Made by a program: the position numbers and the translations under genes. A stretch of 64,000 bases of DNA. Origin: Raineyella fluvialis (GTDB taxonomy: Bacteria > Actinomycetota > Actinomycetes > Propionibacteriales > Propionibacteriaceae). This document shows positions 463-61,048 of this stretch, one piece after another (the first letter of the stretch is position 1; the number at the start of each line of letters is the position of its first letter). Location of the stretch: contig NZ_CP045725.1 of NCBI RefSeq assembly GCF_009646095.1, forward strand, positions 3,224,001 through 3,288,000, given 5' to 3'. Below the pieces are notes generated by a model. That model saw only the letters and a list, made by a program, of their open reading frames with translations. It was not told where the DNA came from and searched no databases.

Positions 463-935
463 GTGTCCGCAGTCATCACCACGTATCTGAAGGACCACCA
501 CGCCGGAGTCACCGCAGGTCTGGAGGTCTTCGACCGCGTCGCCTCCTCCCACAGCGACCTGCAGGTCCGCGAAGCCGTGGCGGCCATCGCCCGAGAAGTC
601 CGGGAGGATCGGCAGAGTCTCGAGGACATCATGCAGACCCTGGGAGTCGAACCCTCACTCCTCAAGGACACGGCGAGCAGCCTGGGGGAGAAGGTGACCA
701 GGCTGAAGCCCAACGAACACCTTGCCCAGCGATCGCCCTTGTCCGACCTCGTGGAACTGGAGGCCCTGGTCCTGGGCGTACGCGGAAAGCGTCTCCTCTG
801 GAAGTCGTTGCTGGCTGTGGGCGACCCGCGTCTGGATCACGGCCGACTCAACGAACTCGTGGAACGTGCCGAGACCCAGGAGAACCAACTCGAGGCGCTG
901 CGCCTCTCCCAGGCCCCAAGCTGCTGCAGTCGTGA
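463..935 (+). CDS. Small helical hypothetical protein, frame broken near its end
   Basis: The start is GTG 463, preceded by GAGGAG at 453-458. The protein is all-helical and charged (TTYLKDHHAGV at the N terminus, then ELEALVLGVRGKRLLW at about 105-120), like small actinobacterial proteins of unknown function of about 155-160 residues. In the start frame the open reading runs on without sense through position 1623, into the next gene. One base added to the C4 run at 914-917 instead ends the protein at once with a Lys-Leu-Leu-Gln-Ser tail and TGA 933-935, giving 157 residues. I annotate that end. The function is unknown; the two-helix-pair look suggests a cytoplasmic helical bundle. Confidence 0.6.
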
Positions 936-1032
936 CAGCTCCGTGTCACGTACGGCACCGCCGGTGAATCGGGGCCCGGGTCGGGCGAAGGGGCACCGGA
1001 CCAGCCACCCGACCGGTGGGTCTGACGGGCTC

Positions 1033-1203
1033 CTATTCGCCTTCGGCCTGGGAAGGCCTGTTCGTATGCGGATCGGCGGTGCCCTCGTCGTCCGGATCGT
1101 TCGTCACGTCGAACGGTTCGTCCATGACCTCGTCCGGGTCACCCTCCGCCGACGAAGGGCGTACGGGGTTGGGGTCGGGGTGGTGCTCAGCGCTGTCATT
1201 CAT
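1033..1203 (-). CDS. Small acidic hypothetical protein (56 aa)
   Basis: ATG at 1201-1203 is preceded on the minus strand by GGAGAG with four bases of spacing. The 56-residue product is rich in Asp, Glu, Pro and Asn and has no membrane segment or cysteine, so it is probably intrinsically disordered. It converges on the preceding gene and diverges from the ABC ATPase gene at 1352. No family is recognised; the strong ribosome-binding site is the main reason to call it. A longer upstream reading to 1368 would overlap the ABC gene and lacks a ribosome-binding site. Confidence 0.5.
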   Translation of the reverse strand: MNDSAEHHPDPNPVRPSSAEGDPDEVMDEPFDVTNDPDDEGTADPHTNRPSQAEGE

Positions 1204-1351
1204 GGTTCTCTCCGATCGAGATTCCTGCGTCCCCGACTTCCAGCGTACGAAGCCGTGAGGAACGTCACAAGGTGGACCGGGCCGGCGAGCCAGCGCATCC
1301 GGCGGGCGAGGGAGGGCGGGAACGCTGGTCCGGAATGGAACACTGGTCTGG

Positions 1352-2071
1352 ATGAGTGCGCACGCCACACCGGCCCATGTCCGTGTCGAGGGACTGTCGC
1401 GTCACTTCGGCACGGGAGAGTCACGCGTCGAGGTGCTGCACGACGTGTCCTTCTCCGTCGCGCCCGGAGGCCGCTGCGTGATCGTGGGGGCTTCCGGATC
1501 GGGCAAGTCCACGCTGCTCAACGCCATCGGAGGGCTGGACAGCCCCGACGCCGGGAGCATCCACGTCGCCGGCCAGGAGATCACCGCGCTGTCCCCTCGA
1601 GGGCTGACGCGCTACCGGCGTGACCACGTCGGCTTCGTCTTCCAGTTCTACAACCTGGTGCCCGACCTGACCGTCCGGGAGAACGTCCAGGTCACCGCCC
1701 AACTCGTCCGCCGGCCCTTGGACATCGACGACCTGCTGCACCACCTCGGTCTGGACGAGCATCGCCACAAGTTCCCCGCCCAGCTGTCCGGAGGTCAGCA
1801 GCAGCGCTGCGCGATCGCCCGGGCCCTGGTCAAGGGATCCGACCTGCTGTTGTGCGACGAACCGACCGGGGCCCTTGACCGCCACACCTCCCAGCAGATG
1901 CTGGAGGTGCTCGAGGACGTGCACCGGCGCTACGGGACCACGCTGGTCATGGTCACCCACAACGAGGCGATCACCGCGCTGGCGGATCAGGTGATCGAGC
2001 TGCGCGACGGCCGGATCGTCCGGGATGAGATGAACACCCACCCGCGCGCCGCGGAAGAGCTCGACTGGTGA
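1352..2071 (+). CDS. ABC transporter ATP-binding protein, LolD/MacB type
   Basis: A 239-residue ATPase of the MacB/LolD/FtsE class that drives an FtsX-like permease. Visible motifs in order: Walker A GASGSGKST near residue 46, Q-loop FVFQFYN, signature LSGGQQQR near 145, Walker B LLLCDEPTGALD and the H-loop VTHN. It is cytosolic and couples to the permease encoded next, whose GTG start overlaps this gene's TGA (GTGA at 2068-2071), so the two are translationally coupled. This class exports or extracts lipids, peptides or lipoproteins; the substrate is not shown by sequence. Confidence 0.93.
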   Translation: MSAHATPAHVRVEGLSRHFGTGESRVEVLHDVSFSVAPGGRCVIVGASGSGKSTLLNAIGGLDSPDAGSIHVAGQEITALSPRGLTRYRRDHVGFVFQFYNLVPDLTVRENVQVTAQLVRRPLDIDDLLHHLGLDEHRHKFPAQLSGGQQQRCAIARALVKGSDLLLCDEPTGALDRHTSQQMLEVLEDVHRRYGTTLVMVTHNEAITALADQVIELRDGRIVRDEMNTHPRAAEELDW

Positions 2072-4445
2072 CCACCTCTGCCGTCCGCCTCACCGCGGTG
2101 CGCAATTGGCGCGGATTCCGGACCACCTGGGCACGCTGGAGCGCCATCGTCGTGCTGCTCACCGTCGGTCTGGGCGTCGTGGTCGGCCTGCTCGCCTCGG
2201 CCACGTCGACACTCCAGGGGATCGAGCGAGGAGCCCGGGAGGGCCGGCTCGCCGATGGCATGGTGATCACCGAGGTCCCGCTCACGCCCGCCCAGCTCGC
2301 CGACGCCCAAGCCGTCGGGGCGAGGATCGAGCCCACGCCGTACGTGGACGTGCCCGGCCGCTCGGGGGACCAGGACACGACGGTACGGGCCTTCCGGGCC
2401 GACCAGAAGGTCAGCCGACCCACGCTCGATGTCGGGGCCCTGCCGGGCCGCACCGACGAGGTGATGGTCGAGAAGAAGCATGCCGCCGCCCACGATCTGC
2501 GGGTGGGGGACACGGTGATGGTCGGCGGGCGGCAGCTGCGGATCAGCGGGATCGGCAGCCTGCCCGACTACACGCTGGCCAGCCCCCGGCTGGGGCAGAC
2601 GAGCGACCCCGCCACGTTCGCCCTGATGGTGGTTGATCCCCGTACGTACGAGCAGCTCGCCGCCTCCCACCCCCGCGACGAGGTCTACGCCTACGGCTAC
2701 GTCCTCACCGGCGCCAGCCAGGACCGACTGCGCCAGCACCTGCAACAGATCCCGCTCGATCCCGACCGGGCCCGCGACCCGTACGTCACCCGGGCGATCG
2801 AGGCGGCCCGGCAGGGTGGGGTGCCACTCAGCTACCCGGCGATGTCGTTGTTCCTGCCGTCGGGGGACAACCCACGCATCACCGGAGCCATCTCGGACGC
2901 CCGCACGACGATGGTCGTGACGCTGGTGACGACCGTGCTGGTGACCCTGCTGGTGGCGTACGTCCTCGCCGAGTTCTCCCGGGACCGGATCCTGCGCGAT
3001 GCCGTGGTGATCGGCACCCAGTCGGCGCTGGGGACGGGAGAGGCCGCGTTGCTGCGCTACTACCTGATCCTGCCGCTCGTCGTGACCGTGGTCGGTGCCG
3101 GGATGGGGACCATCCTCGGCCGATTGATGGCCCCGTCCCTGGGTCTGGTCACCGGCTACTACTCGTTCCCCGCGATCTCGGTCGAGCCGACCCCACTCAT
3201 CGTGGTCGCCACTATCGCGGTCCCCGCCCTGGCGGTGGCGCTGGTCAACATCCTGGTCATCCACCGCGCTCTGGACCGACCGACCCAGGAGTTGCTGCGC
3301 CGCCAGGTCTCGGCGGGCCCGAGCCTGCCGCTGCGACTGGATCGGCTGCCGTTCGTGACGATGTTCCGCCTACGCCAGGCCCTGCGCACCCTGGGCAGCT
3401 ACCTGCTCATCGCCGCAGGGTTGTTCCTGTGCAGCCTGCTGATGGTGTTCGGGCTGGGGATGCGCAGCTCGATGGACGCCTATCTCGCCCGGGCCGAGGC
3501 CGACCTCACCTTCCACGACTACTACACGTTGCGCTTCCCCGACCTGACGAAGGTCCCCGCCGGCGCCCATCCGGCCGTTGCCGTACCGATGCAGGTGCTC
3601 GACCGGGACGGGCGAGCGGGCAAGTCACTGACCGTGCTGGGGATAGCGCCGGGCGATCCGTACTTCCCGATCGACGTCAGCCGACTCGGGCCGCACGAAC
3701 TGGTCCTCTCGAAGGCTGCGGCGCAGAAGTACCGGCTGGACGTGGGGGACACCCTGGCGTTGAGTGACGGCTCCACGCTCAACTGGGCGTTCCGGGTCGT
3801 CGGGGTGGCCGACTACGACGCCATCGCCTTCGGCTTCACCACACCGGCCCGTGCGGAGGAGTTGCTGGACCCGGCCATCCCGGTCGCCGCGCGGCGGATG
3901 AGCGCGCCGGACGGGGGAGTGGTGGTCCCGTACTACAACGCCCTGTTGTCGGACCAACCGCTGGATCTCGACCCCGATCGGGTGCTGAGCCACGCCACCC
4001 GGGAGGAGATGCTCGGGGGGTGGTCAAGTTCAATGCGTTGCTCTCGCGCATCGTGTCGCTGGTCACCTGGTCGTCGATGTTGATCATGGTCGTCGTGCTC
4101 TACGTGCTCGTCCGTCTGGTCGTCGCCCGGCAGCGCTACTCGATCTCTCTGCTGAAGGCCCTCGGCTACTCCGACCGGCAGGTGAGCCGGCTCTACCTCG
4201 ACAACTACCTGTGGCTGGTGGTCGGCGCGATGACCGTGTCCATCCCGGTGTCGCTCGCGATCATGAGCCAGGTCTGGCGGCTGATGATCGTCCACTTGCC
4301 CCTCGGCATCCCGTTCTTCGTCACGTTGCGCGACGTCGCGGTGATGGCTGGGTTGGCCCTCGGGGCGTACGCGGTGGTCCGGCTGGCCACCTCGCACGAC
4401 ACCCGATCGGTGCCGGTGACCGAGGTGCTGAAGTTCCGGGAGTGA
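2068..4445 (+). CDS. FtsX-like ABC transporter permease, frame broken once
   Basis: Partner of the preceding ATPase. The layout is a transmembrane helix near residues 25-50, a large periplasmic-type domain, three helices about 285-400, a second helix and soluble domain from about 455, and a final block of three helices. This is the duplicated FtsX/MacB permease arrangement (expected 792 residues). The reading frame stops shortly after 4020 in one frame, while the last FtsX block continues in another frame to TGA 4443-4445. Adding one G to the G6 run 4015-4020 joins them as Gly-Gly-Val-Val-Lys-Phe-Asn. The gene ends one base before the convergent permease stop at 4447. Confidence 0.85.
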
Positions 4446-9135: not shown

Positions 9136-10893
9136 TCAGCGGACCACCTCGCGGTGCCCGGCGTCGAGGCGCCGGGTCCAGCCACGATGATCGAGGTGCT
9201 CCAGCAGCGGGATGACGACCCGGCGCGTCGTATCGAGAGCCTGCCGGGCCTCGCTGGTGGTGAAGGGCTGGGGCAGGCTCGCGAGTCGCCGCATGGCGAG
9301 TGCGGGGGCCGTCGGGGCCAGCACGATCTGATCGCCGAGGTCGAGTAACCTGCCCAGGCTCACCGCCGCAGCGATCTGGCGCGGGCCCAGCCCCAGCTCC
9401 GTCAGCTCCTGCCGCTCCGGGGCCAGGAACGGCTGTCGAGCCAGCCTGCGCTCGATCTCCACCAATCCGGGTTCGGCCGGCCCCAGGGTGGGCCGGGTGC
9501 CGGGCCGGGCGACGTGGCCCTCACACAGCTCCAGGCCCGCGTCCTCTGCCAAGGGTGCCAGCAGGGCACGGTCGGGCAGGCCGAGGACACCGGCGGCGGC
9601 AGCCATCGGCATCCGGGGACGCAACGGGTTGGTCGCGGCGTACGCGGCGACGCTCTGGCGCAGGGCCTCAGCCCAGCCCTCCCAGACCTCTCCGTCGATC
9701 AGGTAGTGACCGCTGCGGTGAACGCCGGCCAGTACCTCGTCCGGGGATCCGCCGAGGAGCTGCAGATCGTGGCGGGTCATCCAGCCGCGCCGATGCACCT
9801 CCCGCGCGGGATCCAGGTGGTGGGAGGCGTCTTCCAGCTCCGCTGCCCGCTGCCGGGCGGCGCCGCGCCGGTCGAGGTCCGGCGGGTCGGCGTCGAGGAC
9901 CACAGCACCGGCCAGCACGCGCTGCTGCCCCGGGTCGCGGAGCACCAGACGGTCACCTGCCTGCAGCGGCAGCGCCGCCCGCCAACTGATCCGGGCGAAG
10001 CGGGTCCCCAGCAGACGGACGTGCACCGCCCGGGAGGTCGTGCCGACGTGGGCCATCAGGTGGCCGGGAAGCCGGTCGGGGACGGGATTCAGGGCCACGT
10101 CGACGACCTCGCTGTGATGCCAGGCCCCCGTGAGCAGCGTGTCGCCGCGCACCACCTCGTCTGCGGCGACGTCGCGCAGGTTCACCGCCACGCGCGCCGG
10201 AGCCGACACCTGCGGATGGTCCTGGCCAAGGCTCTCGAGAGCGCGGATGCCGACCGTACGACCGGGCAGCTGGACGCGGTCCCCGACCCGCAGGGTGCCG
10301 GATTCCAGAGTGCCGGTGACAACAGTGCCGGCACCCCGGATGGTGAACGAACGATCGATCCACAACCGGACCCTGCTCGACGGGGCCGGTGCGGGCAGGC
10401 TTGCGATGAGCCGCGTCAGCGCGCCACGCAGCTCCTCGACCCCGTCGCCGGTCATTGCCGACACACTGACCGCCTCGCAGCCGGCCAGCGGGGTGGACCG
10501 GAGTCGCTCGCGGGCCTGCCCGAGCGCTGGGGCGGGGTCGGCCAGATCCTTGCGCGTGATGACCAGGAGCCCGTGGGAGATGCCGAGGGCGGTGATGGCG
10601 TCGAGGTGCTCCTGGCTCTGGGCACGCCAGCCCTCGTCGGCCGCGACGACCAGCATCACCGCGGGGACGGGTCCGAGCCCGGCCAGCATGTTGGCGATGA
10701 AACGCTCATGACCCGGCACGTCGACGAACGCCACCTCCTCGCCGGACGCGAGTCGCGTCCAGGCGAAGCCGAGGTCGATGGTGAGACCACGCGCCCGCTC
10801 CTCGGCCCAGCGATCGGGCTCGATCCCGGTCAGCGCCCTGACCAGGGTCGACTTGCCGTGGTCGACGTGGCCGGCGGTGGCGATCACCCTCAT
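9136..10893 (-). CDS. selB: Selenocysteine-specific elongation factor SelB
   Basis: 585 residues. The N terminus is an EF-Tu-like GTPase: GHVDHGKST (P-loop), [10 protein letters not shown] (switch I), DVPGHERF (G3) and TRKD (G4). Beta-barrel domains follow at about 170-340. The C-terminal half carries winged helices that read the SECIS hairpin; the last ends [16 protein letters not shown]. It carries Sec-tRNA-Sec to the ribosome at recoded UGA codons such as the one in fdhA nearby. Its ATG overlaps the selA stop (ATGA at 10890-10893). Confidence 0.96.
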
Positions 10894-12194
10894 CCGGCAT
10901 CTCCCGTGGTGGTGAGGGCGGCCAGGATCGCGTCGCGCAGGGCGTCGTCATCGGCGGTGGGGACACAGCGCAGGTCGACCAGACACCGCCCCGCATCCAC
11001 CCGGGCGAGGACCGCCGGCTCGCCTCGACGCAGGAGCTCCGCCACCCTGCTCGGGAGGGCCACGGCGTAGCCGCTGAGCGCGACGCCAGGGGCACCGCCA
11101 CCGCCGACCCGGCCGGCCGATTCGACGATCTCCCCGCCCACCGCTTCGGCCAGCTTCCAGGTCCGGCCACGCAGATCCTCGGGGCGCAGGTGCCGCATCC
11201 GGGTGACGGGCGGTTCGGGGCCCGTCAGGGTCGCCTCCAGTGCGGCCAGGGTGAGCTTGTCCACCCTCAGCGCCCGGGCGAGCGGATGCCTGCGCAGCCG
11301 CTCGACGAACGGGGCGGCGCCGAGGACGATGCCGGCCTGCGGGCCCCCGAGGAGCTTGTCGCCGCTGGCCGTGACCAACGCCGCCCCCTGCCGCAGCGTC
11401 GTGGTGGCATCGGGCTCGTCCGGCAGGGCCGGGTCGGGTCCCAACAGGCCCGAACCGATGTCGGCGATCACGGGCACGCCGAGCCCGGCCAGCTGCGCGA
11501 TCTCCACACCGCTGGTGAAGCCCTCGATGCGGAAGTTGCTCGGATGGATTTTGAGGAGGCAGCCGGTCTCGGGACCGATCGCAGCGCGGTAGTCGTCCAG
11601 ATGCGTACGGTTCGTCGTCCCGACCTCGCGGAGCCGTGCGCCGGTCGAGGCGATCAGGTCGGGCAGCCGGAAGCCGTCCCCGATCTCCACCATCTCCCCC
11701 CGCGACACCACCACCTCCCGCCCCGCGGCGAGAGCTGTCGTCGCCAGCACCAGGGCGGCGGCACCGTTGTTGACCACCAGAGCCGCCTCGGCCGGCACAA
11801 CGGCGGACAGCAAGGCGTCGAGGACGCCACGACCTCGCCGAGAGCGCTGCCCGCTGGCCAGGTCGAGTTCGACGTCGACGTACCCGGCAGCGATGACCAA
11901 CGCCTCCACCGCGGCGGGGGACAGCGGTGCCCGTCCGATGTTGGTGTGGATCACGACCCCGGTGGCATTGATCACTGGTCGCAGGCTCGTCGCCCTGGTC
12001 GGCAGGGCGGCCAGGGCATGGCCACGGACGGACTCGGGAGGGATCTCGCCGGCGCGGGCACGCTGTTGCGCCTGGACGATCGCGGCCTTGACCCTGGCGG
12101 GTCCCAGCCGGTCGATCGCCGCGCGGAAGCCGGGCTCGTCCATGAGCACATCCGTGCGGGGTATGGCACGCCGCGGATCACCGGCCACCGGCAT
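10890..12194 (-). CDS. selA: L-seryl-tRNA(Sec) selenium transferase SelA
   Basis: 434 residues. SelA is a PLP enzyme that turns Ser-tRNA-Sec into Sec-tRNA-Sec with selenophosphate. Visible: the actinobacterial N-terminal [10 protein letters not shown] motif, then [20 protein letters not shown], the [13 protein letters not shown] substrate loop and the PLP lysine in [12 protein letters not shown]. The DPRR motif fixes the start at ATG 12194, 13 bases downstream of the tRNA-Sec CCA end; longer readings would run through the tRNA gene. The ribosome-binding site is weak and crowded against the start, so expression may depend on the tRNA transcript. Confidence 0.95.
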
Positions 12195-12207
12195 CCCTTC
12201 GTGGTGA

Positions 12208-12302
12208 TGGCGGAGGCGGACGGGAATCGAACCCGCCAGGCCGAGATACCCGGCCTCACCGGTTTTGAAGACCGGGGGACCACCAGGTACCCATACGCCT
12301 CC
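12208..12302 (-). tRNA. selC: tRNA-Sec (anticodon TCA)
   Basis: 95 bases including encoded CCA at 12208-12210. The anticodon loop CTTCAAA carries TCA between CCGGT and ACCGG stem halves. The long variable arm and extended acceptor/T stack are those of a selenocysteine tRNA, and the length matches E. coli selC. The seven outer acceptor pairs are perfect (GGAGGCG with CGCCTCC); the expected eighth pair is a T-C mismatch. Discriminator G73. It is the first element of a tRNA-selA-selB transcript, reading UGA in fdhA. Confidence 0.95.
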
Positions 12303-12454
12303 CTCGGCCAGGAGTCTAGCCGGAGGGCGCGGCTCGGCCAGGGGGAAATGCGTGCACACGTGTCGATCGGCGAGAACCCATGCCGCGCCCCTGTCGCGCC
12401 CGGCACTCCGCGCTTCCCCTGTCCCGGGGCCATGCCGATCGTTAGGCTCGTCAC

Positions 12455-13440
12455 ATGAGTGAGACCCGGCTGACCCAGTTCGCCCATGGGGGAGGGTGCG
12501 CCTGCAAGATCCCGCCCGGTGAGTTGGAGGAGATGGTCGGCGGTCTGGTGGGCCGCCGCGATCCCCGACTCGTCGTCGGACTCGATGACGGCGACGACGC
12601 CGCCGTCGTCCGGCTCCGGGACGCCGGTGACGAGGTGGTCATCTCCACAGCTGACTTCTTCACCCCCGTGGTGGACGACGCGTACGACTGGGGCCGGATC
12701 GCCGCCGCGAATGCCCTCAGCGACATCTACGCGATGGGCGGCCTGCCGACGATGGCGATCAACCTGCTCGGATGGCCGCGCGGCGTGCTCCCGACGGAAC
12801 TGGCCAGGGAAGTGCTGCGGGGCGCGCTGGACGTCTGCGACCAGGCGGACACCCCCTGGTCGGCGGCCACAGTATCGACTCCCCGGAACCGACCTATGGT
12901 CTCGCCGTGACGGGGGTGGGACGTGCCGATCGCCTCCTGCGCAACGATGCGGCCCGGGCGGGGACACCGATCAGCCTGACAAAGCCGCTCGGCGTCGGGG
13001 TGCTGAACAACCGTCACAAGGCCACCGGCGAGGTCTTCGCGCACGCCGTGGAGTCGATGGTCGCCCTCAACGCCGCTGCTTCGGCGGCCGCCCTTGCCGC
13101 CAGGATCACCGCGGCCACCGACGTCACCGGGTTCGGGCTGCTGGGGCACCTGTACAAGATGGCCCGGGCCTCCGGGGTCACGGCGGTCGTGGACGCGGCC
13201 GCCGTCCCGTACCTGGCCGATGCCCGTGAGTCGTTGGCCGCCGGGTTCATCCCGGGCGGCAGTCGCCGGAACCTGGAGTGGGTCAGGCCGTGTCTCGACA
13301 GCCGAGTGGGCGAGGACGAGTTGCTGCTGCTGGCTGACGCGCAGACCTCCGGCGGCCTGCTGCTCGGCGGGGAGATCGCCGGAGCGCCGGTGATCGGAGA
13401 GTTCGTCCCGGCCGGTCCGGCGGCCGTGGTCGTCCGCTGA
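12455..13440 (+). CDS. selD: Selenide, water dikinase SelD, frame broken once
   Basis: Makes selenophosphate from selenide and ATP for SelA. The N terminus has the catalytic Cys motif GGGCACKIPP (Cys form, not Sec), followed by LVVGLDDGDDAAVV and ANALSDIYAMGGLP. The frame breaks after CDQADTP: GGHSIDSPEPTYGLAVTG and the rest, up to the C-terminal half, are in the next frame. One base added to the C5 run 12852-12856 restores a 328-residue protein of normal length. It diverges from tRNA-Sec/selA and converges with the formate dehydrogenase operon. Confidence 0.92.
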
Positions 13441-13455
13441 CCGCGGCCGGTCCGC

Positions 13456-14614
13456 TCAGGCCGAGGGCGATCGCACCTCGTCCCCCAGAGGCATGTCCCC
13501 GGGACCGCGGCTGGCCCCGGCGCCACCCCCGACGACGTCGTTGCTCGCGGCCAGTCACCGCCCGGCTGGGTGATCCCGTGTCCCTCGGCCGCCACGCGCT
13601 CGGCGCGGGCCCGCTGCGGCTGGACCGTGTAGCGCGGATCCTTCGCGGACTCGATCCCAGCGCGGAAGATCGCGAAGCGGGTGCAGACCGAGCCGGCCAT
13701 CAGCGCCAGACCGCTGATGGCGGCCCCCGCACGATGGCGGCCCAGCACGGCCGCCCCCAGCGCTCCGGCAACGGACAGGGCGCGGGCCGCCGCGTTCAGC
13801 CTGCCGGCGTCGCCCTCATGCAGGGGCTGGGCGAGATCGCCGAGGTCGCGCTTCATCAAGGCGTCCGCGGCCAGGTCCGCGGCGACGGCGAGGACTGCCG
13901 TCGTACGTACGGGACCGGTTTCGGCCGGGGAGTGGTGACCAGCGCCAGCCCGCTCCCGGCGGCAAGGGCGGAGGCGACGAACACGAAGGGCAGCTTCGGG
14001 TAGGCCTCGTGCCAGGTGGGCGACGCGGTGTCCGCCAGCAGCACCGCCGTGTAGGCCGCCAACGGCGGGGCGAAGAACGCCGTCCCGGCACTGGCCAGGC
14101 CGTCGACGAGACCTATCGCTGAACGCAACGTCGAGCCGCGCGGCACCATCGCGCAGGCCACCTCGGTCGCGATCCCCGTTCCCGCGGCGGCGCTGAATCC
14201 GGTCAGGATCCAGGTGCCGACGGACATCGGCGAGGTGAGCTTCACCGTGCGGATCATGTTGATCGCCCGCTCGGGGCGACCCAGATCCTTCATCAGGGTC
14301 AGACCGCTCGCTGCGGCGCCGAGGATGGCGGCGATCCGGGCCCGCCGCCGCAAGCGAGGCCGCCCCGTCGCATGTCCCCCCGCCGCCAGCAGCCCGGAGC
14401 CGGCCGCGAGACCGCCGATGAACAGGTACGTCGGGATGGGGTTACCCCACGGCGCCGGCTTCACGACGTTCCGCCCGTAGTAACTGGTGAAGTCAGCCTC
14501 CGGGACAGTGGCGTTCGGATCCGCCCTGCGCCGGCGCCGGGCGTCCTGACCCGGTGAGGCCGGGCGACGCGGCGGCTCGGGTGGGCGGTCCTGGTCGAAC
14601 GGGCTCGTGCTCAT
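13456..14614 (-). CDS. NrfD/PsrC-type membrane subunit of formate dehydrogenase, frame broken twice
   Basis: Third gene of the formate dehydrogenase operon; its ATG overlaps the fdhB stop (14611-14614). Hydrophobic helices begin at about residue 60 (IPTYLFIGGLAAGSGLLAAGG), with the NrfD-like LKDLGRPERAINMIRTVKLTSPMSVGTWIL-type loop after them. It is the quinone-facing anchor taking electrons from FdhB. The first frame ends at 13856, but the family sequence continues in another frame. One C in the run at 13927-13930 and one more at 13497-13500 give a 386-residue protein ending at TGA 13456-13458, 15 bases from the selD stop. The second correction is less certain. Confidence 0.75.
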
Positions 14615-15639
14615 CTCATCCTTCCGGTCCCCGCGAAGATCGCGATCACGGCGCCGAGCATGGCGGTGCCGGCGATCCCGGCCCGGGTGAACATCGCCCC
14701 CAGGTCAGCGGTCGGCACCACCGGGTCCGGCGGCAGGCCGTACGCCTCGGGTTCGTCCATCAACAGGAACACCGATCCGGTGCCACCGACGCCGTCCTCG
14801 GGGTTCGCGCCGTACAGCCGGGCCTCGGTGTGGCCCTGGGCATGGAGCGTCGCGAGTCGCTCCCGCGCGAGCTTCACCATCTCGTCGTGGTCGCCGTACT
14901 TGATGCTGGTGGTGGGGCAGGTCTGGGCGCAGGCGGGGGTGCCGCCGACGCCGATCCGGTCGTAGCAGAGGGTGCACTTCTGCGCGACGCCGGCCTTGGG
15001 GATCGCTTCACGTTGCCCGTTGCCGACTTCGACGGTGCCGGCCTCACGGCGGCCGATCACACCGAAGGGGCAGGCCGCCACGCAGTAGCCACAGCCGTTG
15101 CAGACGTCGTCCTGGACCACGACGGTGCCGAACTCGGTACGGAACAGCGCCCCGGTCGGGCACACGTCGAGGCACCCGGCGTGCGTGCAGTGCTTGCAGA
15201 CGTCCGAACTCATCAGCCAGCGGACGTCAGGCAACTCCGCCTCGGCCCCGACCGCCGCGCCGTCGGAGGGTCCAGGGGGAGTGGACGTCGCAGCCGCGGC
15301 GGGCTGCCCGATCGTCGGCATCCCCAGCGAAACCGCGCCCGAGCGGCGGGCCCTGGCCAACTGCTCGGCGTCCTGTTCGACGAAAGCGACGTGTCGCCAG
15401 GTATTGGCGCCCAGATGGCCGGTGTTGTCGTACGACGAGCCGAGCATCTGCAGGCCCCCCTCGTCGACCGGACGACCGGGGACGTGGTTCCATTCCTTGC
15501 AGGCCACTTCGCAGGCCTTGCAGCCGATGCAGATCGAAGTGTCGGTGAAGAAACCCTTCCTCGGCCGATGCGGCTCCCAGTTCGCATCGGCGGCGGGATC
15601 GGTGGGGCCCGTGAGTTGCCTGCGCCAGAATCCCATCAC
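14611..15639 (-). CDS. Formate dehydrogenase iron-sulfur subunit FdhB
   Basis: 342 residues of a ferredoxin-like electron-transfer subunit. Four cysteine clusters are visible: CIGCKACEVACK near 37, CKHCTHAGCLDVCP near 150, CNGCGYCVAACP near 182 and CTLCYDRI...CAQTCP near 220-240, enough for four [4Fe-4S] centres. A hydrophobic C-terminal helix (about 318-335) could anchor it next to the NrfD-like subunit. The GTG at 15639 overlaps the fdhA stop; an ATG follows directly. It passes electrons from FdhA to the membrane subunit. Confidence 0.94.
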   Translation of the reverse strand: MMGFWRRQLTGPTDPAADANWEPHRPRKGFFTDTSICIGCKACEVACKEWNHVPGRPVDEGGLQMLGSSYDNTGHLGANTWRHVAFVEQDAEQLARARRSGAVSLGMPTIGQPAAAATSTPPGPSDGAAVGAEAELPDVRWLMSSDVCKHCTHAGCLDVCPTGALFRTEFGTVVVQDDVCNGCGYCVAACPFGVIGRREAGTVEVGNGQREAIPKAGVAQKCTLCYDRIGVGGTPACAQTCPTTSIKYGDHDEMVKLARERLATLHAQGHTEARLYGANPEDGVGGTGSVFLLMDEPEAYGLPPDPVVPTADLGAMFTRAGIAGTAMLGAVIAIFAGTGRMR

Positions 15640-18600
15640 TCCTCCTCCGCTTCGTGGACGTCGGTGCCCGGGGCGCTCTCCTCGGCATCGCCGGGTGTCC
15701 CCGCGAGGGCGCTCCCGAGTGCCGCGTTGCTGGTCTGGGGGGTGATGCCCGCCCGGCGGCGATACTCCTCGACCAGCTCCAGCAGGGCAGGGCCCCGCGG
15801 CCGTCGACCCGGACGGATGTCGCAGGAGGCGACCTTGGACTCCTGGATCTGGACGTTCGGGTCGAGGACGACACCGAACAGGTCGTTGGCCGCGTCCCCG
15901 CTGACGATGGCCTGGTTACCCGTTGCCCAGTGGTACGGCATGGCGATCTGGTGCACCGTACGACCCTCGATGGTCAGGGCCGATATCCGGTCCGTCACCA
16001 TCACCCGGGCCTCGATCGCGGCCCGAGCCGAGATGATGGTGGCCCACCCCCGGTCCTCCAGGCCCCTTTCGGCGGCCAGTTCGGGCGACACCTCGCAGAA
16101 CATCTCCGGTTGGAGCTCAGCGAGGTAGGGCAACCAACGGCTCATCCCGCCGGCTGTGTGGTGTTCGGTGAGTCGGAAGGTCGAGAAGACGTACGGATAC
16201 ACTTCGGCCCCCGGTGCGTTACCGGACGGAGCGAACAGGTTGTCGGGACGCCGGAACGTCCCCCGCGCCGGATTGGACTGCTGGGTGTAGAGCGGATTGA
16301 CGATCGGCGACTCATTCGCCTCGTAGTGGGTGGGGAACGGCCCGTCCACCAGGCCCTTCGGGGCGAAGAGCCAGCCCTTGCCGTCGGCCTGCATGATGAA
16401 CGGATCGATGCCGTCCAGGCCCTTCGGTCCTCCCGTGCCGTCCGGTGCACGGTAGGAGGGCGCGGTCTGGGGCGGGAAGTCGGGTACGTCCTTGCCGGTC
16501 CACTTGCCAGTCTCCTCGTCCCACCAGACATACTTCTTGCGCTCGCTCCAGGGCTTCCCGTCCGGATCGGCGGAGGCACGGTTGTAGAGGATGCGCCGAT
16601 TGGCGGGCCAGGCCCAGCCCCACTTGGAGGCCACCAAGTCCTGCTCGTCGGCGGGCACCCGGTTCGCGGCATGGTTGGTGCCGTCGGCATAGACGCCGGT
16701 GTAGATCCAGCAGCCGCCACTCGTCGAACCGTCCGCTGCCATCTCGGTGTAGGCGTTGAGCAGTTGACCCGCCTTCTCCCCACTGAGGTGGCGGCCGTTG
16801 ACCTCCATCAGGACGGACTCCGGGACGATCTCACCATGCTCGTCGACCGGGTAGTCCCAGGTGACGTCGAGCAGGGCGCGGTCCCGTGGGTCACCCGAAC
16901 CGGCCACCTTCTCCCGCAGCTTCTTGCCGAGCAGGTAGAAGAACTGCAGGTCGCTCATCGCCTCGCCCGGCGGCGACACCGCCTTCTCCCGCCACTGCAG
17001 CAGGCGCTGGGTCTGGGTGAAGCTGCCGGCCTTCTCCACGTGGGTGGCTGCGGGCAGGAAGAACACCTCGGTGCCGATGTCCTCGGTGACGAGCTCACCG
17101 CTCTCGATCTCGGGGCTGGCCCTCCAGAAATCCGCGGTCTCGATCAGCTGGAAGTCCCGGACGACCAACCACTTCAGGTGGGCGAGGCCGAGCCGCTGCA
17201 TCTTGGCGTTGGCCGAGCCCACCGCGGGGTTCTGCCCGATCACGAAGTAGCCGGCGATCTCGTCGCGCAGCATCGACATCACCGTCTGATAGGTGCCGTG
17301 GGCACCGGTCAACCGAGGGAGATGGTCGAAGCACCAGTCGTTCTCCTTGGTGGCGGCGTCACCCCAGTAGGACTTCATCAGACTGACCATGTAGGCGTCG
17401 GCGTTCGCCCAAAAGCCCTTCTGCTGCTTGGACGCGATGTTGGCGAGGTACTCCTCGAAGGTGTCCTGCTGACCGGCCACCGGCATCGGCAGGTAGCCGG
17501 GCAGCAGGTTGTACAGGGTGGGGATGTCCGTGGACCCCTGGATCGAGGCATGACCACGCAGCGCCATGATCCCGCCGCCGGGACGGCCCATGTTGCCGAG
17601 CAGCAACTGCAGGATCGCCGCCGTACGGATGATCTGGGCCCCCATACTGTGCTGGGTCCAACCGACCGCGTAGCAGAAGGCGGTCGTGCGCTCGCGCCCC
17701 GAGTTGCTGGTGATCGCGTCGGCCAGATAGGCGAAGTCCTCCGGGGAGATGCCACACGCCTGCTGCACCATCTCGGGGGTGTAGCGCCGGTAGTGCTTCT
17801 TCAGCAGTTGGAAGACGCACTGGGGGTCGGTCAGCGTCTCGTCGCGCTCCAGTTCGGCGTGCTCCAGGGACGGTCCACCGGACCCGTGGCTCTCGCCCGC
17901 GGAGCTGGTGCTGAGGTCGCTGCCATGAGGATGACCCCCGGACGGCCCGGCGACACCGCCCAGCTTGCCGCCCTCGAGGGACTCCACGTCACCCTCCGAC
18001 TTGTACGCCCAGCTGGTCAGGTCGTACGAGTGGCGGTCCTCGTTGAAGCCGCTGAACACGCCATCCAGGTCCTCCGTGTCGCGGAAGTCGTCGTTCACGA
18101 TCGTCGCGGCATTGGTGTAGTTGAGCACGTACTCGTGGAACCACAGATCGTTGCTCAGCACATGGTTGATCAGGGCACCGAGGAGAACGATGTCACTGCC
18201 CGCCCGGATCGGCAGGTGCCGATCCGCCTGCGCCGACGTACGGGTGAAGCGTGGGTCGACGTGGATGATCTTCGCCCCCCGCAGCTTGGCCTCGGTCACC
18301 CACTGGAAACCGACCGGATGGCACTCGGCCATGTTGGAGCCCTGGATGACGATGCAGTCGGAGTTCGACAGGTCCTGCAGGTACTGCGTGGCGCCACCGC
18401 GCCCGAACGAGGTCCCCAGACTGGGGACCGTGGCGGAGTGTCAAATACGCGCCTGGTTCTCGATCTGCAACGCCCCTGCGGCGGTGAAGAGCTTCTTGAT
18501 CAGGTAGTTCTCTTCGTTGTCGAGAGTGGCCCCGCCGAGGGCGGCGATGCCCATCGTGCGGTGCAGGGCATGACCCTTGTCGTCGTGCTCCTGCCAGTAG

Positions 18601-19010
18601 TCGTGGCGGGCGGCGAGGAAGCGGTCGGCGATCATGTCGATCGCGGTGTCCGGGTCGAGGTGTTCCCACTCGGTGCCGTGCGGTCGCCGGTACATCACCT
18701 TCGTGATCCGGCTGGGGGAGTTGACCAACTGTTCGCTGGCCGCCCCCTTCGGGCACAACCTGCCGCGGCTGATGGGGGACTCGGGGTCTCCCTCGATCTG
18801 GGTGACCTTGCCGTCCTGGACGAAGACGCGCTGTCCGCAGCCGACAGCGCAGTAGGGGCAGACACTGCGGGCCACGCTGTCCGCGGTCTGCGTCCGCGGA
18901 ACGATATTCCGCGTCTTTTCGCTGGTAACCGCAGGACCGCGGCCGAGCAGATCACCGGTGCGCAACTGGCGCACGATCGGCCATTCCAGAAACGTCTTGC
19001 CCATGCCCAT
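15636..19010 (-). CDS. Formate dehydrogenase catalytic subunit, selenoprotein (UGA = Sec190)
   Basis: 1124 residues when TGA 18441-18443 is read as selenocysteine. It oxidises formate to CO2 at a Mo/W-bis-pterin centre. N-terminal [4Fe-4S] motif CPYCAVGC...CPKG near 58-95; the UGA follows ENQARI and precedes HSATVPSLGTSFGRGG, the exact site of Sec in E. coli FdnG/FdhF. The frame is open on both sides (15636-18440 and 18444-19010). A Gly/Ser/His-rich linker, unusual for the family, lies near residues 330-370. No twin-arginine signal is seen, suggesting a cytoplasmic-facing enzyme. The start at ATG 19010 is chosen for the GGAGGG upstream and the family-like KTFLEWPIVRQLRTGDLLGR start. Confidence 0.93.
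18400..18443 (-). promoter_or_regulatory. Bacterial SECIS hairpin with the Sec UGA
   Basis: Directly after TGA 18441-18443 on the coding strand, 11 bases lead to a perfect 7-bp stem: GGTCCCC and GGGGACC (18411-18417 with 18423-18429) around the loop AGTCT. The distance from UGA to loop (about 18-22 bases) and the GU-containing loop resemble the E. coli fdhF SECIS bound by SelB. Confidence 0.85.
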
Positions 19011-19205
19011 CTCGGCATCCCTCCATGAGAGGCAACTCACGCTGGTGGTGTCAGCCTAGGGCGGGGTGGCGGTGGATGACCATAGCCTGCGGCGAAATCC
19101 TCTGGACGTCGCGTCCGTCGACCGACGGGCCTGCGGGGACCGGACGAGCAGGGACCGGACCAGCTGGGCCGGACAGCCGGTATCCGCTCCCGGTCCCCCT
19201 ACGCT

Positions 19206-41501: not shown

Positions 41502-42643
41502 GTGACGTACGAGATCCTCACCGTTCCCCTGGCCGAGCTGCGCACCCGCACATCGATGAAGTGGCGCCGCTACCCGGAGGACGTGCTGCCGCTGTGGGTG
41601 GCCGAGATGGACTGTCACATCGCACCACCGGTGGCCGCCGCCCTCCACGCCGCCATCGACCGCGGGGACACCGGCTACCCGGCCGGCCCGGTCTATGAGG
41701 AGGCGGTGGCACGCTTCGCGCTGGACCGTTGGGGCCTGTCGCTGGACCCCGCCCTGATGGGCCTGATGCCCGACGTCATGGGGGCATCCGCAACGCCATC
41801 CTCGTCACCACGCACCCCGGCGACCACGTGGTGGTCAATCCGCCGGTCTACCCCCCGTTCTTCGCCGCCGTCACCGGGACCGGCCGCGCGCTGCTCGAGG
41901 TCCCGATGGCGCCGAACGGGCATCTGGACCTGCCCGCCCTGGAGGCCGCCTTCTCCGGCCGAATGGGCGTACGCCCGACCGCGTATCTGCTCTCCAGCCC
42001 GCACAACCCGACGGGGCGCGCGCACACGGCCGAGGAACTGAGCACCGTGGCGCATCTCGCCCACGAGCACCACATCCGGGTCATCGTGGACGCGATCCAC
42101 GCCCCGCTGACCGACCCGGGCGTGCCGTACGTGCCGTACCTGTCCCGATCGGGGGCTGAGGATGCCCTGGTGCTGTTCAGCGCGTCGAAGGCCTGGAACC
42201 TCGCCGGGCTCAAGGCCGCGGTGATGGTCGCCGGCCCGGCTGCGGCGAAGGACCTGGCGGCCGTCCCGTACGACGCGGCCCGCGGCGCAGCGAGCCACCT
42301 GGCGGTGCTCAGCCACACCGTGGCCCTCGACGAGGGCCGGTCCTGGCTCGAGCAACTGCGCTCCGAGATCGCCGCCAACCGGGGCCTGCTCGATCGACTG
42401 CTCGCCGAGCACCTCCCGAACGTCACCCAACTGCCTGCCGATGCGACCTACCTGGCTTGGCTGGACTGCTCCGCGCTGGGACTGGACGATCCGCAGCAGC
42501 ACTTCCTGGACACCGCGCGGATCGCACTCAACCCGGGCCCCGCCTTCGGCTCCGTCGGCCGTGGGCACGTACGCCTCAACCTGGCGACGTCCCCGCAGAT
42601 CCTCACCGAAGCGATCACCCGGATGGCGGCCTCGCTCCGCTGA
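41502..42643 (+). CDS. MalY/PatB-type aminotransferase or cystathionine beta-lyase, frame broken once
   Basis: PLP fold-type I enzyme of the MalY/PatB class: LPLWVAEMDCHIAPPV near 30, GDTGYPAG near 55, LLSSPHNPTGRAH near 165, VDAIHAPLTDPG and the PLP lysine in FSASKAWNLAG near 228. These convert cystathionine or cysteine conjugates to thiols. The frame breaks at the G5 run 41780-41784; adding one G makes VMGGIRNAILVT and a 380-residue protein. It starts at GTG 41502. Confidence 0.85.
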
Positions 42644-54339: not shown

Positions 54340-56342
54340 TCAGACCTGGGCCTTCGACGCGATCGCCGCGACGATCTCGTCGATCGCATCGTCGATCGGC
54401 ACGCCGTTCTTCTGTTCCCCGTCGCGATAGCGGAACGACACCGCGCCGGCGGCCCGGTCGTCCCCACCGGCGATCAGCATGTAGGGGACCTTCTGCTTCT
54501 GGGCGTTGCGGATTTTCTTCTGCATCCGGTCGTCGGAGGAGTCCACCTCGACGCGGACCCCCGGGCGCGGAGCTTCTCGGCGACCTCGTCGAGGTAGCCG
54601 GTGAACTCGCCGGCGACCGGGATCCCGACCACCTGGACAGGGGCCAGCCAGACCGGGAAGGCGCCCGCGTAGTGCTCCAACAGAACGCCGAAGAACCGCT
54701 CGATCGAGCCGAAGAGGGCCCGGTGGATCATCACCGGCTGCTGGCGGGAACCGTCCGCGGCGGTGTACTCGAGCTCGAACAGCTCCGGCTCGAAGAAGTC
54801 CAGTTGGATGGTCGACAGCTGCCAAGTCCGCCCGATCGCATCCTTCGCCTGGACCGAGATCTTCGGGCCGTAGAAGGCGGCGCCGCCCGGGTCGTCGACG
54901 AGCTCCAGACCGGAGGCCTGGGCGACCTCGGCGAGCGTACGCGTCGCCTCCTCCCAGGTCGCGTCATCACCGACGGACTTCTCGGGGTCACGGGTCGACA
55001 GCTCGAGGTAGAAGTCGTCCAGGCCGTAGTCCTTGAGGAGGTCGAGGACGAAGGTGAGCAGCCGGGTCAGCTCGTCCTTCATCTGCTCGCGGGTGCAGTA
55101 GATGTGCGCGTCGTCCTGGGTGAAGCCGCGGGCACGGGTGAGTCCGTGGACGACACCGGACTTCTCGTAGCGGTAGACCGACCCGAACTCGAACAGCCGC
55201 AGCGGCAGCTCCCGGTAGGAGCGCCCGCGCGAGGAGAAGATCAGGTTGTGCATCGGGCAGTTCATCGGCTTGAGGTAGTAGTCGATGCCCGGCTTGACGA
55301 CGTTGCCGTCCTCGTCGCGCTCCTCGTCGACGCGCATCGGCGGGTACATGCCGTCGGCGTACCAGTCGAGGTGCTTCGAGGTCTCGAACAGGTGCCCCTT
55401 GGTGATGTGCGGGGTGGAGACGAAGGAGTACCCGGCCTCGAGGTGGCGCTGGCGGGAGTAGTTCTCCATCTGCATCTTGATCAGCGCACCCTTGGGGTGG
55501 AACACCGGCAGGCCGGAGCCGATCTCGTCGGGGAAGGAGAACAGGTCGAGTTCGCTGCCCAGCTTGCGGTGGTCGCGCTTGGCGGCCTCCTCCATCCGAG
55601 TCTGGTAGTCCTTGAGCTCCTCCCGGGACGGCCAGGCGGTGCCGTAGAGGCGCTGGAGCTGCTGGTTCTTCTGGTCACCACGCCAGTACGCGGCCGATGA
55701 CCGGGTCAGGGCGAACGCCGGGATGTAGCCGGTGTGCGGCACGTGCGGACCGCGGCAGAGGTCCTCCCAGGCGCGCTCTCCGTTGCGCCGGACGTTCTCG
55801 TAGATGGTGAGCTCGCCCGACCCCACCTCCATCGCGGACCCGTCCTCGGCGTTCGCCGACCCCTTGTCGATGATCAGCTCGAGCTTGAACGGCTCGTCCG
55901 CGAGCTCGGCGCGGGCCTCCTCGTCGGAAACCACCCGGCGACGGAAGCTCTGCTTCTCCTTGATGATCCGCTGCATCTGCTTCTCGAGCGCCTTGAGACC
56001 CTCGGGGGTGAACGGCTCGTCCACCATGAAGTCGTAATAGAAGCCGTCGGTGATCGGCGGGCCGATGCCCAGCTTCGCCTCCTCGTGCAGGTTCTGCACG
56101 GCCTGGGCGGCCACGTGGGCGCAGGAGTGGCGCAGGATGTTGAGGCCCTCAGGGCTGCCGATCAGGACCGGTTCCAGCGTGGCGCCGTCAGGCACCGGGA
56201 GGTGGAGATCCCTGATCTCCCCGTCCACGCGACAGGCGACGATCGTACGATCCTCGCCGAACAGGTCCAGACCCGTGGTGCCGTCGTCGAGGACCTCCTG
56301 CGAGGTGTCAGACGTCCGGACCAGGGTGACGGTGATGGACAC
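54340..56342 (-). CDS. thrS: Threonyl-tRNA synthetase, frame broken once
   Basis: Class II synthetase. An N-terminal TGS region, the editing domain ([25 protein letters not shown], with His/Cys zinc ligands), the catalytic core ([58 protein letters not shown]) and an anticodon-binding tail. The frame breaks in that tail at the C5 run 54558-54562; one more G on the coding strand makes [14 protein letters not shown] and a full 667-residue protein. The start is GTG 56340-56342 with GAGAGG upstream. Essential, so the break is almost certainly an assembly error. Confidence 0.93.
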
Positions 56343-56528
56343 GGCGGTTTCCTCTCTCCCCGCACGGGTGTCGCATACATACCTGGCATGCGTCCGGACG
56401 GGCTCGTGTTCGCCGGCGCACCGGGCGGCGCCGCGTCCGAAGCTTACCGCGCCCACCGACCGCGTCCCCTCACCGCTGCCCGGGGGACGCGCCAGCGCCA
56501 CGGGGCTGGGCCGGGAGCCGGCCCGCTG

Positions 56529-57396: not shown

Positions 57397-57471
57397 TGGT
57401 GGGCGGTACTGGGTTCGAACCAGCGACCTCTTCCGTGTCAGGGAAGCGCGCTACCGCTGCGCCAACCGCCC
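57397..57471 (-). tRNA. tRNA-Val (anticodon GAC), first cassette
   Basis: 75 bases with encoded CCA. Anticodon loop CTGACAC holds GAC; acceptor GGGCGGT pairs with ACCGCCC, A73. One base separates its 5' end from the tRNA-Cys 3' end. Confidence 0.95.
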
Positions 57472-57472
57472 G

Positions 57473-57543
57473 AGGTGGAGACGGGATTTGAACCCGCGTG
57501 CACGGATTTGCAGTCCGTTGCCTCGCCTCTCGGCCACTCCACC
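57473..57543 (-). tRNA. tRNA-Cys (anticodon GCA), first cassette
   Basis: 71 bases without encoded CCA. Anticodon loop CTGCAAA holds GCA; acceptor GGTGGAG pairs with CTCCACC, U73. Second of the Gly-Cys-Val set. Confidence 0.95.
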
Positions 57544-57606
57544 AGGTGGGAACCTCACCCTGGTGGAGGGCGTACGAGTCCGCCCCTGGGGGCGGGACCC
57601 GCTCCG

Positions 57607-57679
57607 AGCGGACGACGGGATTCGAACCCGCGACCCTCACCTTGGCAAGGTGATGCTCTACCAGCTGAGCCACGTCCGC
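57607..57679 (-). tRNA. tRNA-Gly (anticodon GCC), first cassette
   Basis: 73 bases without encoded CCA. Anticodon loop TTGCCAA holds GCC; acceptor GCGGACG pairs with CGTCCGC, U73. Transcribed first. Confidence 0.95.
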
Positions 57680-58619: not shown

Positions 58620-58694
58620 TGGTGGGCGGTACTGGGTTCGAACCAGCGACCTCTTCCGTGTCAGGGAAGCGCGCTACCGCTGCGCCAACCGCCC
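58620..58694 (-). tRNA. tRNA-Val (anticodon GAC), second cassette
   Basis: Sequence as in the first cassette, 75 bases with encoded CCA. Its CCA end is followed one base later by a shared terminator. Confidence 0.95.
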
Positions 58695-58695
58695 G

Positions 58696-58766
58696 AGGTG
58701 GAGACGGGATTTGAACCCGTGTACACGGATTTGCAGTCCGTTGCCTCGCCTCTCGGCCACTCCACC
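58696..58766 (-). tRNA. tRNA-Cys (anticodon GCA), second cassette
   Basis: Same 71-base form as the first copy, with two base differences in the variable/T-arm region (GTGTAC against GCGTGC on the plus strand). One base separates it from tRNA-Val. Confidence 0.95.
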
Positions 58767-58868
58767 ACGTGAAGGACCCCACCCGGACCACCTGCACGAT
58801 CCGGGTGAACCCGCCAGCATGCAGGAGACAAGCTCCTACCGGGTTCCACAAGGGCGAGACCCTCTCCG

Positions 58869-58941
58869 AGCGGACGACGGGATTCGAACCCGCGACCCTC
58901 ACCTTGGCAAGGTGATGCTCTACCAGCTGAGCCACGTCCGC
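58869..58941 (-). tRNA. tRNA-Gly (anticodon GCC), second cassette
   Basis: Identical in design to the first copy, 73 bases without encoded CCA. The spacer to tRNA-Cys is longer here (102 against 63 bases). Confidence 0.95.
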
Positions 58942-59005: not shown

Positions 59006-59020
59006 TCAGGAACTCTAGCA
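59006..59020 (-). promoter_or_regulatory. Probable promoter of the second tRNA cassette
   Basis: Same 15 bases as 57752-57766. Here a TTGGTG at -35 is spaced 17 bases from the TAGAGT -10 on the minus strand. Confidence 0.55.
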
Positions 59021-59174: not shown

Positions 59175-59204
59175 TTGCTGATTCGCGTTGAGCATGGCTA
59201 TTGT
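59175..59204 (+). promoter_or_regulatory. Promoter of tRNA-Val(CAC)
   Basis: TTGCTG at 59175-59180 and TATTGT at 59199-59204 are 18 bases apart, with the tRNA starting 12 bases after the -10. Confidence 0.5.
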
Positions 59205-59216
59205 TGGCTCTCGCAC

Positions 59217-59288
59217 GGGCGGTTGGCGCAGTGGTAGCGCACTTCGTTCACACCGAAGGGGTCGCTGGTTCGAATCCAGTACCGCCCA
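59217..59288 (+). tRNA. tRNA-Val (anticodon CAC)
   Basis: 72 bases without encoded CCA. Anticodon loop TTCACAC holds CAC; acceptor GGGCGGT pairs with ACCGCCC, A73. It reads GTG codons. It is the last host-type gene before the integrated element and a plausible integration site. Confidence 0.95.
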
Positions 59289-59300
59289 CCCATACGAAAC

Positions 59301-59345
59301 CCGCTCTGACTAGGTGATTCACCGGTCAGGGCGGTTGTCGTTTTC
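59301..59345 (+). terminator. Rho-independent terminator after tRNA-Val(CAC)
   Basis: A nested stem (CCGC, CTGAC, GGTGA with TCACC, GTCAG, GCGG at 59301-59334) is followed by TTGTCGTTTT. It lies 12 bases after the tRNA. Confidence 0.7.
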
Positions 59346-59450
59346 CCGGGTGCAACTTCTACGCAACGCAAGGCCTCCGAAGCGGGGCCAGGACGTGACG
59401 TAGGACACGTACCGGTGCAACCTTCCCGGCCAGGGGCCAACCAACAAGAC

Positions 59451-59488
59451 GGCCCCCGGGAGCGTTGCAACCGCTTCAACCGGGGGCC
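59451..59488. terminator. GC-rich inverted repeat before the first element gene
   Basis: GGCCCCCGG (59451-59459) and CCGGGGGCC (59480-59488) around 20 bases. It could terminate transcription or be a regulatory hairpin just upstream of the 59512 gene. Confidence 0.45.
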
Positions 59489-59511
59489 TAGGACAGCAGA
59501 GGACGCTGACC

Positions 59512-59700
59512 ATGGGCACAACCGTACCTGCCGACCGCGACTGGGACCGCATCGAAGCGGGCCACCAGGCCATCGACGCCCTGAACAACATCGTCGGGGA
59601 GCTGCGAGGCACGCTCGAGCACGACCCTGAAGCGGTCACCCAGCTCGAGGCGTCCCTCGCCGTCCTGTTCGGCACCGCCAACGCCACCCCGACCGTATAG
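59512..59700 (+). CDS. Small hypothetical protein of the element (62 aa)
   Basis: 62 residues, mostly helical (WDRIEAGHQAIDALNNIVGELRGTL), weakly acidic, no cysteine or membrane segment. GAGGA lies ten bases upstream. No family is recognised. After it, 59701-59967 holds no gene I can support. Confidence 0.5.
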   Translation: MGTTVPADRDWDRIEAGHQAIDALNNIVGELRGTLEHDPEAVTQLEASLAVLFGTANATPTV

Positions 59701-59967
59701 CCGTCCACCTGGGCGGCCTGACAGCGCTCCCCGCCCGCTCCCCCTCGAGGTCGAGCACACAAGGATGCACCCGGTATTGCTCCCCTGGGCGCCGAACCGG
59801 CGGCGCCCGTCCCTCCCCAGCGTGGCCACGCGACGGGAGAGACCAGACGTATGAGCCTGCCGCCCCTGGGACGGCGGGCCATCGGGCGTGGGTCGACAAC
59901 GCGGGAGCGGCAACAGGGGAAACCCACTGGGGGGGTCGAAGACGAGGCCGCGAAGCCTGCATGCTCG

Positions 59968-60839
59968 TCAGGGGGCCTCCACTCTTTTCGCCACTACCGA
60001 AAGCGAGGCCATGGTGGCGTGAAGCGCCAGCCTTGCCCGCTCGGTCCGATCAGCCCCAATGACTCTGCTGCGCCGCCAGTCAAGCGGCTTGGCCGGGAGT
60101 GGCCAGATGCAGTGCACCCCTGGGGCGACCATCTTCCGCAGCGGTATTTCCCTGACCATTACAGCAGTAAGGTCGTGAAGAGGATAATTAGCCCCGAACC
60201 ACTGTTCAAATATCACAAGACCATCGATGGCCAAGTATGCCGAGCCGCAGTTAGTTCCGTGCTCCCGCACATACTTCGCGCCATCTACCCCGGCCGGTAC
60301 GAGTGTCCTGGAATCGCTCCAAATTCCGAAGCCTGCATAGGGGCTATTGCTCTTGGCGATGAAGATATGCGTGTCGCTGGTTATCGCTCGTTTCTCGTAA
60401 AAGTCGCGGTACTCGCTCGCAGGGTACCGACGGTCCCCCGGGTCACAAAATTGGTCGTACATCATGAACGTCTTGTGGGCCCACACCGCCAAGTCGCACA
60501 TTTCCGCAGGGGTTATAAACTCCCTGCTCCCGTTGCGGGACATCTCATAAATTAAGGGCTTGATCCCCCTTTCCAGGGTGCTCATCCACCCAGAATTGCA
60601 GGAACGGCACACAACCTTCACCTGCACTTCATGTAGGATCGGGGTTTTCTTACCGCGCGTTACCTCATACTCGACCAGTTCATCTTCATCTGTGAACCCC
60701 CAGGTTAGTTGAGGGATAGATTCTTGGTACGCCCCATGCTCAGCGATGTACTTAGATGGTGCATCAAACTTGCGTAACCATTGGGGATAAACATGCTCCT
60801 TTGAGTCCGCCAGCCCCCACACCAGATGCACCTGCGCAT
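59968..60839 (-). CDS. HNH-like zinc-motif protein, AT-richer cargo gene, frame broken once
   Basis: ATG at 60837-60839 follows GGGGGAAGG. The first codons give MRRCIWCGG; adding one base to the C5 run 60814-60818 joins this to LADSKEHVYPQWLRK, after which comes CRSCNSGWMSTLE near 100. The set CxxC, EHVYPxW and CxxCNxGW is the pattern of HNH-type zinc-binding nuclease-like proteins, and 290 residues is a plausible length. The rest (about 110-290) is unrecognised. Its base composition is visibly AT-richer than the neighbours, so it was probably acquired recently. Role in defence or toxicity is only possible. Confidence 0.6.
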
Positions 60840-60929
60840 TGCCTTCCCCCTGAAGAGTGCACTCACCCACCCTGCTCATGATATAGCGAGAGGCTATGCG
60901 CATCGGCGTGCCTAGGCGACAGGGACCCT

Positions 60930-61048
60930 ATGGAACAGCGCGGAAACGTTCAACCCTATGGAAGAGGCGTCCAGCCGCCCCGGACGCGCTCCGGGAGTTC
61001 GCTGGGGTGGTCCTCGAGGCGGCGGACCGGCTCGAGGCCATCGGGTGA
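60930..61048 (+). CDS. Possible tiny protein, frame broken once
   Basis: ATG 60930 starts a run that joins, after one base is added to the C4 run 60978-60981, to a frame reading PDALREFAGVVLEAADRLEAIG with TGA 61046-61048 (39 residues). A terminator follows at 61069-61098, which supports a transcribed unit. The call is tentative; no family is recognised. Confidence 0.3.

Follow-up and report, generated by a model that had tools for sequence, protein, structure and literature searches.

Do the frame-broken genes in this part of a Raineyella chromosome record gene decay, are their products rescued or switched by the cell, or are the letters themselves at fault? The window analysed here, 64,000 bases long (G000:C1:3224001-3288000), lies in the chromosome of a Raineyella sp. 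(Propionibacteriaceae) assembled as a single contig of 3,649,865 bases (~3.65 Mb; GC ~69%). Among the best 80 records, the closest named one to the thrS gene of the window is that of Raineyella antarctica LZ-22 (92% identity over the best segment); no genome paper on the Raineyella organism was found in the literature searched, judged by titles. The first-pass annotation of the window had listed eleven runs of G or C, each said to lack one base and thereby to break the frame of a gene. All eleven runs exist as written, with lengths of 4, 6, 5, 4, 4, 5, 6, 5, 5, 5 and 4 in the window letters.

The breaks themselves were judged against relatives. Stop-to-stop ORFs from the matching 80-95 kb of three other Raineyella genomes (G001, G002 and G003) were compared with the window by tblastn; these congener stretches cover the window poorly at about 9-31 kb and 59-64 kb. 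For sites where no congener matched, homologues were sought in other genomes, and at most 12-14 ORFs were compared per site. Related proteins support eight of the eleven proposed breaks (4015, 12852, 13927, 30276, 35761, 41780, 54558 and 60814); that at 914 is tentative, and those at 13497 and 60978 are not supported. The proposed direction, a loss in every case, holds at the eight supported sites, where the assembly lacks one base, counted modulo 3, and also at 914 if that break is real. Five of the eight sites could be read against congeners:

About 2068-4445, plus strand: FtsX/MacB-type permease gene, one base short at the G run 4015-4020.
Gene ending at 31074, plus strand: cupredoxin-domain protein gene (PF00127), one base short at the C run 30276-30280.
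Gene ending at 36258, plus strand: MFS transporter gene, one base short at the C run 35761-35766.
About 41502-42643, plus strand: PatB-type C-S lyase/aminotransferase gene, one base short at the G run 41780-41784.
About 54340-56501, minus strand: thrS, one base short at the run 54558-54562 (C on the plus strand, G on the minus strand).

The frameshifts are not common to the relatives: the permease, MFS, PatB-type and thrS genes are each a single open frame in all three congeners, and the cupredoxin gene is so in G003, the sole congener stretch matching it. The position at which the window departs from this frame falls at or beside the run in each case, namely at 4017-4020, 35764-35767, 41780-41783, 54558-54561 and 30274-30280, respectively. 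Domain matches tell where the frames part: PF12704 and PF02687 flank the permease break, one on each side, and PF07690 matches both frames of the MFS gene, the downstream one below cut-off. The G003 copy of the PatB-type gene matches TIGR04350 below cut-off. In thrS the frame breaks at residue 649, about 73 residues short of the true end, and the TIGR00418 match reaches position 499 of 565 in the copy of this genome. No further coding-supported breaks were found in the parts of the window covered by G003. In all, supported breaks number 8 in 64 kb (9 with 914).

Three more sites were judged by more distant homologues, which likewise cross them without a change of frame:

About 12455-13440, plus strand: selD, selenide water dikinase gene, one base short at the C run 12852-12856.
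Formate dehydrogenase cluster, minus strand: nrfD-like membrane subunit gene (PF03916), one base short at the run 13927-13930 (G on the plus strand, C on the minus strand).
About 60836 down to 59968, minus strand: gene without a name, one base short near its 5' end at the run 60814-60818 (C on the plus strand, G on the minus strand).

In selD, the AIRS (PF00586) and AIRS_C (PF02769) domains fall in two different frames, with the change at about 12847-12856, and a single frame is found in 10 of the 12 homologous ORFs compared (8 distinct genes, two counted twice); of the two exceptions, one aligns downstream of the break but not upstream, and the other is an ORF in the wrong frame. The frame of nrfD changes at about 13916-13928 relative to 10 of 12 homologous ORFs, which represent 7 distinct genes; the two remaining ORFs are out of frame. 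The unnamed gene carries a Cys-x-x-Cys-Gly motif and a following EHV.QWL region in two frames; both lie in one frame in five of the 14 homologous ORFs compared (L203, L207, L208, L211 and L215, from 4 genomes), and the remaining nine align weakly or on one side. 'Zinc-finger-like' would be a label given by this analysis alone.

The selD and nrfD genes belong to a selenocysteine cluster at 9136-19040, which comprises selB, selA, tRNA-Sec (12212-12302, RF01852), selD and formate dehydrogenase; for these two genes, matches in the three congeners are absent or distant. The formate dehydrogenase alpha subunit gene of this cluster is interrupted by a TGA at 18441-18443, which the G017 homologue shares, and this codon is very probably a case of genuine recoding, neither an error nor the mark of a pseudogene. 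At the other end of the window, an array of tRNA-Val, tRNA-Cys and tRNA-Gly is duplicated (57397-57679 and 58620-58941), with an extra tRNA-Val at 59217-59290. From about 59.3 kb, beside this tRNA-Val, there is no long blastn match in the congener stretches compared, and the neighbourhood is perhaps an integration site.

The remaining three proposals fared less well:

About 463-935, plus strand: small protein gene, with a possible one-base shortfall near its 3' end at the C run 914-917.
13497-13500, minus strand: claimed second break in nrfD, unsupported.
60978-60981, plus strand: claimed break, unsupported, in a 53-aa ORF at 60887-61045 (to 61048 with its stop) that is already open.

The small protein gene is present in 15 of the 37 genomes searched, its own counted, and homologous ORFs end near 914. 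The tail of the closest homologue (G004; its DUF892 match is weak and below cut-off) reads KLLQ, which is what the next frame gives here, a match of 4 residues and 12 bits. The tail matches to L192 and L196 are just as weak and lie in another frame; with L195, the alignment continues without a shift, at low identity. A one-base shortfall at 914-917 is thus a tentative reading of these tails. For 13497-13500, no relative covers the site, and the closest NrfD homologue ends at about 13548 of the window. The unshifted nrfD frame stays open to 13014-13016, across selD, which makes a further loss plausible without fixing its position: any loss between 13557 and 13459 would stop the frame. Alternatively, the tail may differ. 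The break claimed at 60978-60981 is unnecessary, as the 53-aa ORF needs no frameshift. A convincing homologue of this ORF was not found (best E = 0.005 in 196 other genomes of the family, with no plasmid match; at the search threshold of E = 1, 180 of 197 genomes gave some match).

We then extended the comparison beyond the window, using an extra 1.16 Mb of the chromosome and 1.26 Mb of G003, with genes compared in both directions. The stretches examined (0.44-0.84, 1.14-1.5 and 3.2-3.65 Mb) make up about one third of the chromosome (1.22 Mb), with one congener as reference. In the forward direction there were 477 gene matches, 415 of them above 150 bits and spanning 545 kb; they contained 84 frame changes, 79 strong enough to score, and 35 with a coding codon signature on both sides. 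Of these 35, 34 fell in the one-base-short class and one in the one-base-extra class. The last filters drop events that are better explained in the opposite direction or that exceed 8 bases, and all 28 events left after them belong to the one-base-short class: 25 are exactly -1, two are -7 and one, at position 626866, aligns as +2. Two genes carry two of the 28 events each, and four events are the window sites 4015, 35761, 41780 and 54558. That all 28 should fall in one sign class has a chance probability of 4e-9. The reverse direction, with 519 gene matches and 78 scored changes, gave none (0/78) that passes the same filter. A raw clean list comprised 35 losses as against 7 gains; no gain passes the coding-frame test (0/7), and a number of losses fail it too.

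A run of at least four of one base adjoins 23 of the 28 events, as against 22% of random gene positions (P about 2e-11), and the longest adjoining run is always of C or G; the other five events have no run of four or more nearby. Events occur in all three large stretches examined. Twenty-eight events per 545 kb of compared genes is a lower limit, since the filter is strict, and extrapolation gives roughly 190 to 500 breaks per chromosome. We also tried run-length counts as a reference-free test of under-calling. Compared with the congeners, this chromosome shows no visible shortage of long G/C runs (of 5-6); any shortening must therefore be confined to a minority of runs, and the counts are uninformative at such an error rate. 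A/T runs rarely reach five or more bases in this chromosome.

Several of the genes hit are housekeeping genes. Intact G003 counterparts match the aconitate hydratase, citrate synthase, acetate-CoA ligase, TreZ and thrS models above cut-off. The proS gene is split over two frames, which cover positions 1-240 and 249-559 of the proline-tRNA ligase model, with the break in mid-gene. For thrS, only one match was found in the genome. Loss of threonyl- or prolyl-tRNA synthetase is incompatible with life, although the thrS shift lies so close to the gene end that it might leave some activity. In the best-conserved cases, identity before and after the break is 91 and 88% (thrS), 93 and 95% (aconitase) and 94 and 93% (citrate synthase). 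In another member of the same taxonomic order (G021:C1:1200249-1201992), thrS is likewise matched as two overlapping pieces in different frames, and similar errors may thus exist in other one-contig genomes.

Repeats within the genome offer a further view. An intact IS256-family transposase gene occupies 24205-25494 of the window, and its copies at 0.01 and 0.91 Mb are frame-split; a second copy, 99% identical to that of the window, spans 1286 rather than 1287 nt and lies in two frames. The first copy of a 585-bp tandem repeat near the contig start (12.1-14.3 kb) reads CCC at a place where three others read CCCC, and the aligned stretches show no substitution. Both differences fit length errors, but either could instead be real. 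This repeat, of about 3.7 copies, adjoins an array of twelve perfect tandem copies of a 264-base unit (L137, 14486-17647), which is open for 1,083 and 1,099 codons in two frames and probably encodes a repeat-rich protein.

Sequence comparison thus leads us to conclude, with high confidence, that the frame breaks are residual homopolymer under-calling in the consensus and that the living cell most likely carries these genes intact, as the first-pass annotation had proposed in preference to decay. What speaks for this reading is the single sign of the events, their G/C-run context, their spread over the chromosome and the essential or housekeeping nature of genes among those hit. G or C runs with a true length of about 5-7 would have been called one base short, shifting the frame of otherwise intact genes, and the missing bases would be present in the cell; the cause would be a consensus of the long-read type that did not receive enough accurate polishing. 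Counting against under-calling are the 5 of 28 events away from runs, the +2 alignment at 626866, the single one-base-extra event among the 35 before the last filters, the undiminished overall counts of long G/C runs, and the stronger effect on A/T than on G/C runs reported in PMC12007338.

Read literally, the sequence would describe real pseudogenes, in a mutator or relaxed lineage whose genes are being lost to deletions of one base in G/C runs. The 1286-nt IS256 copy could be true decay of a mobile element, and shifts near 3' ends, as in thrS, are tolerable according to PMC3711429, which regards a shift close to the 3' end, in a gene that stands alone, as likelier a real indel than an error; the positions of the thrS and 914 sites count against the error reading in this respect. 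Such a lineage would have had to break thrS, proS, citrate synthase and aconitase, and the nearly equal identity on the two sides of the breaks, in the best-conserved cases, is not what relaxed constraint past a break would leave. Natural slippage, moreover, yields gains as well as losses, and there is no one-base gain among the 28 final events. We consider decay very unlikely. If the breaks were real and the products restored by programmed ribosomal frameshifting or by slippage during transcription, this would agree with the position of most breaks at homopolymer runs, which permit slippage. However, four of the same proteins are encoded unshifted in all three congeners, relatives are unshifted at all eight supported sites, so that the shift site is not conserved, and the genes are unrelated and differ in local sequence at their breaks. 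In PMC3711429, conserved programmed sites appear as clusters of homologous shifted genes, and singletons, such as those seen here, point to indels or errors. The probability left to frameshifting or slippage is minimal. Phase variation has in its favour that G/C tracts are its classic switches, but the tracts here, of 4-6, are short, the genes hit include housekeeping enzymes, and a mix of signs would be expected where 28 of 28 events share one class; we find it scarcely credible. It is just as improbable that all run lengths are real, with the lineage carrying hundreds of one-base G/C-run deletions and essential enzymes restored by efficient slippage in transcription or translation.

Under-calling also has close counterparts in published assemblies. 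PMC8812927 reports that long-read-only bacterial assemblies can retain hundreds of residual errors, mostly homopolymer indels that lead to frameshifts, and PMC12007338 that most deletions follow runs of four to five. The pattern in Raineyella is alike: indels of a single base, which are losses here, lie within or beside short runs and break many genes of one genome, with relatives intact. It differs from the Pss508 assembly (a 59% GC genome) described in PMC12007338, where A/T runs are about twice as affected as G/C runs; that G/C runs are affected here would be explained by the GC content of ~69% and the rarity of A/T runs of at least five. As with the singleton frameshifted genes of prokaryotic surveys (PMC3711429), which are read there as indels or sequencing errors, the frame transition is confined to one genome and absent from the homologues; unlike for those singletons, the number of breaks within a single genome and their common sign class single out error as the cause.

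The breaks are thus very probably ordinary data error and biologically ordinary. Annotation of this chromosome would probably present the affected genes, with thrS, proS, citrate synthase, aconitase and selD among them, as pseudogenes or as split ORFs, and the genome needs polishing before use. Such false pseudogenes would mislead studies of gene loss as well as metabolic reconstruction of the organism, for example of its selenocysteine/formate dehydrogenase cluster.
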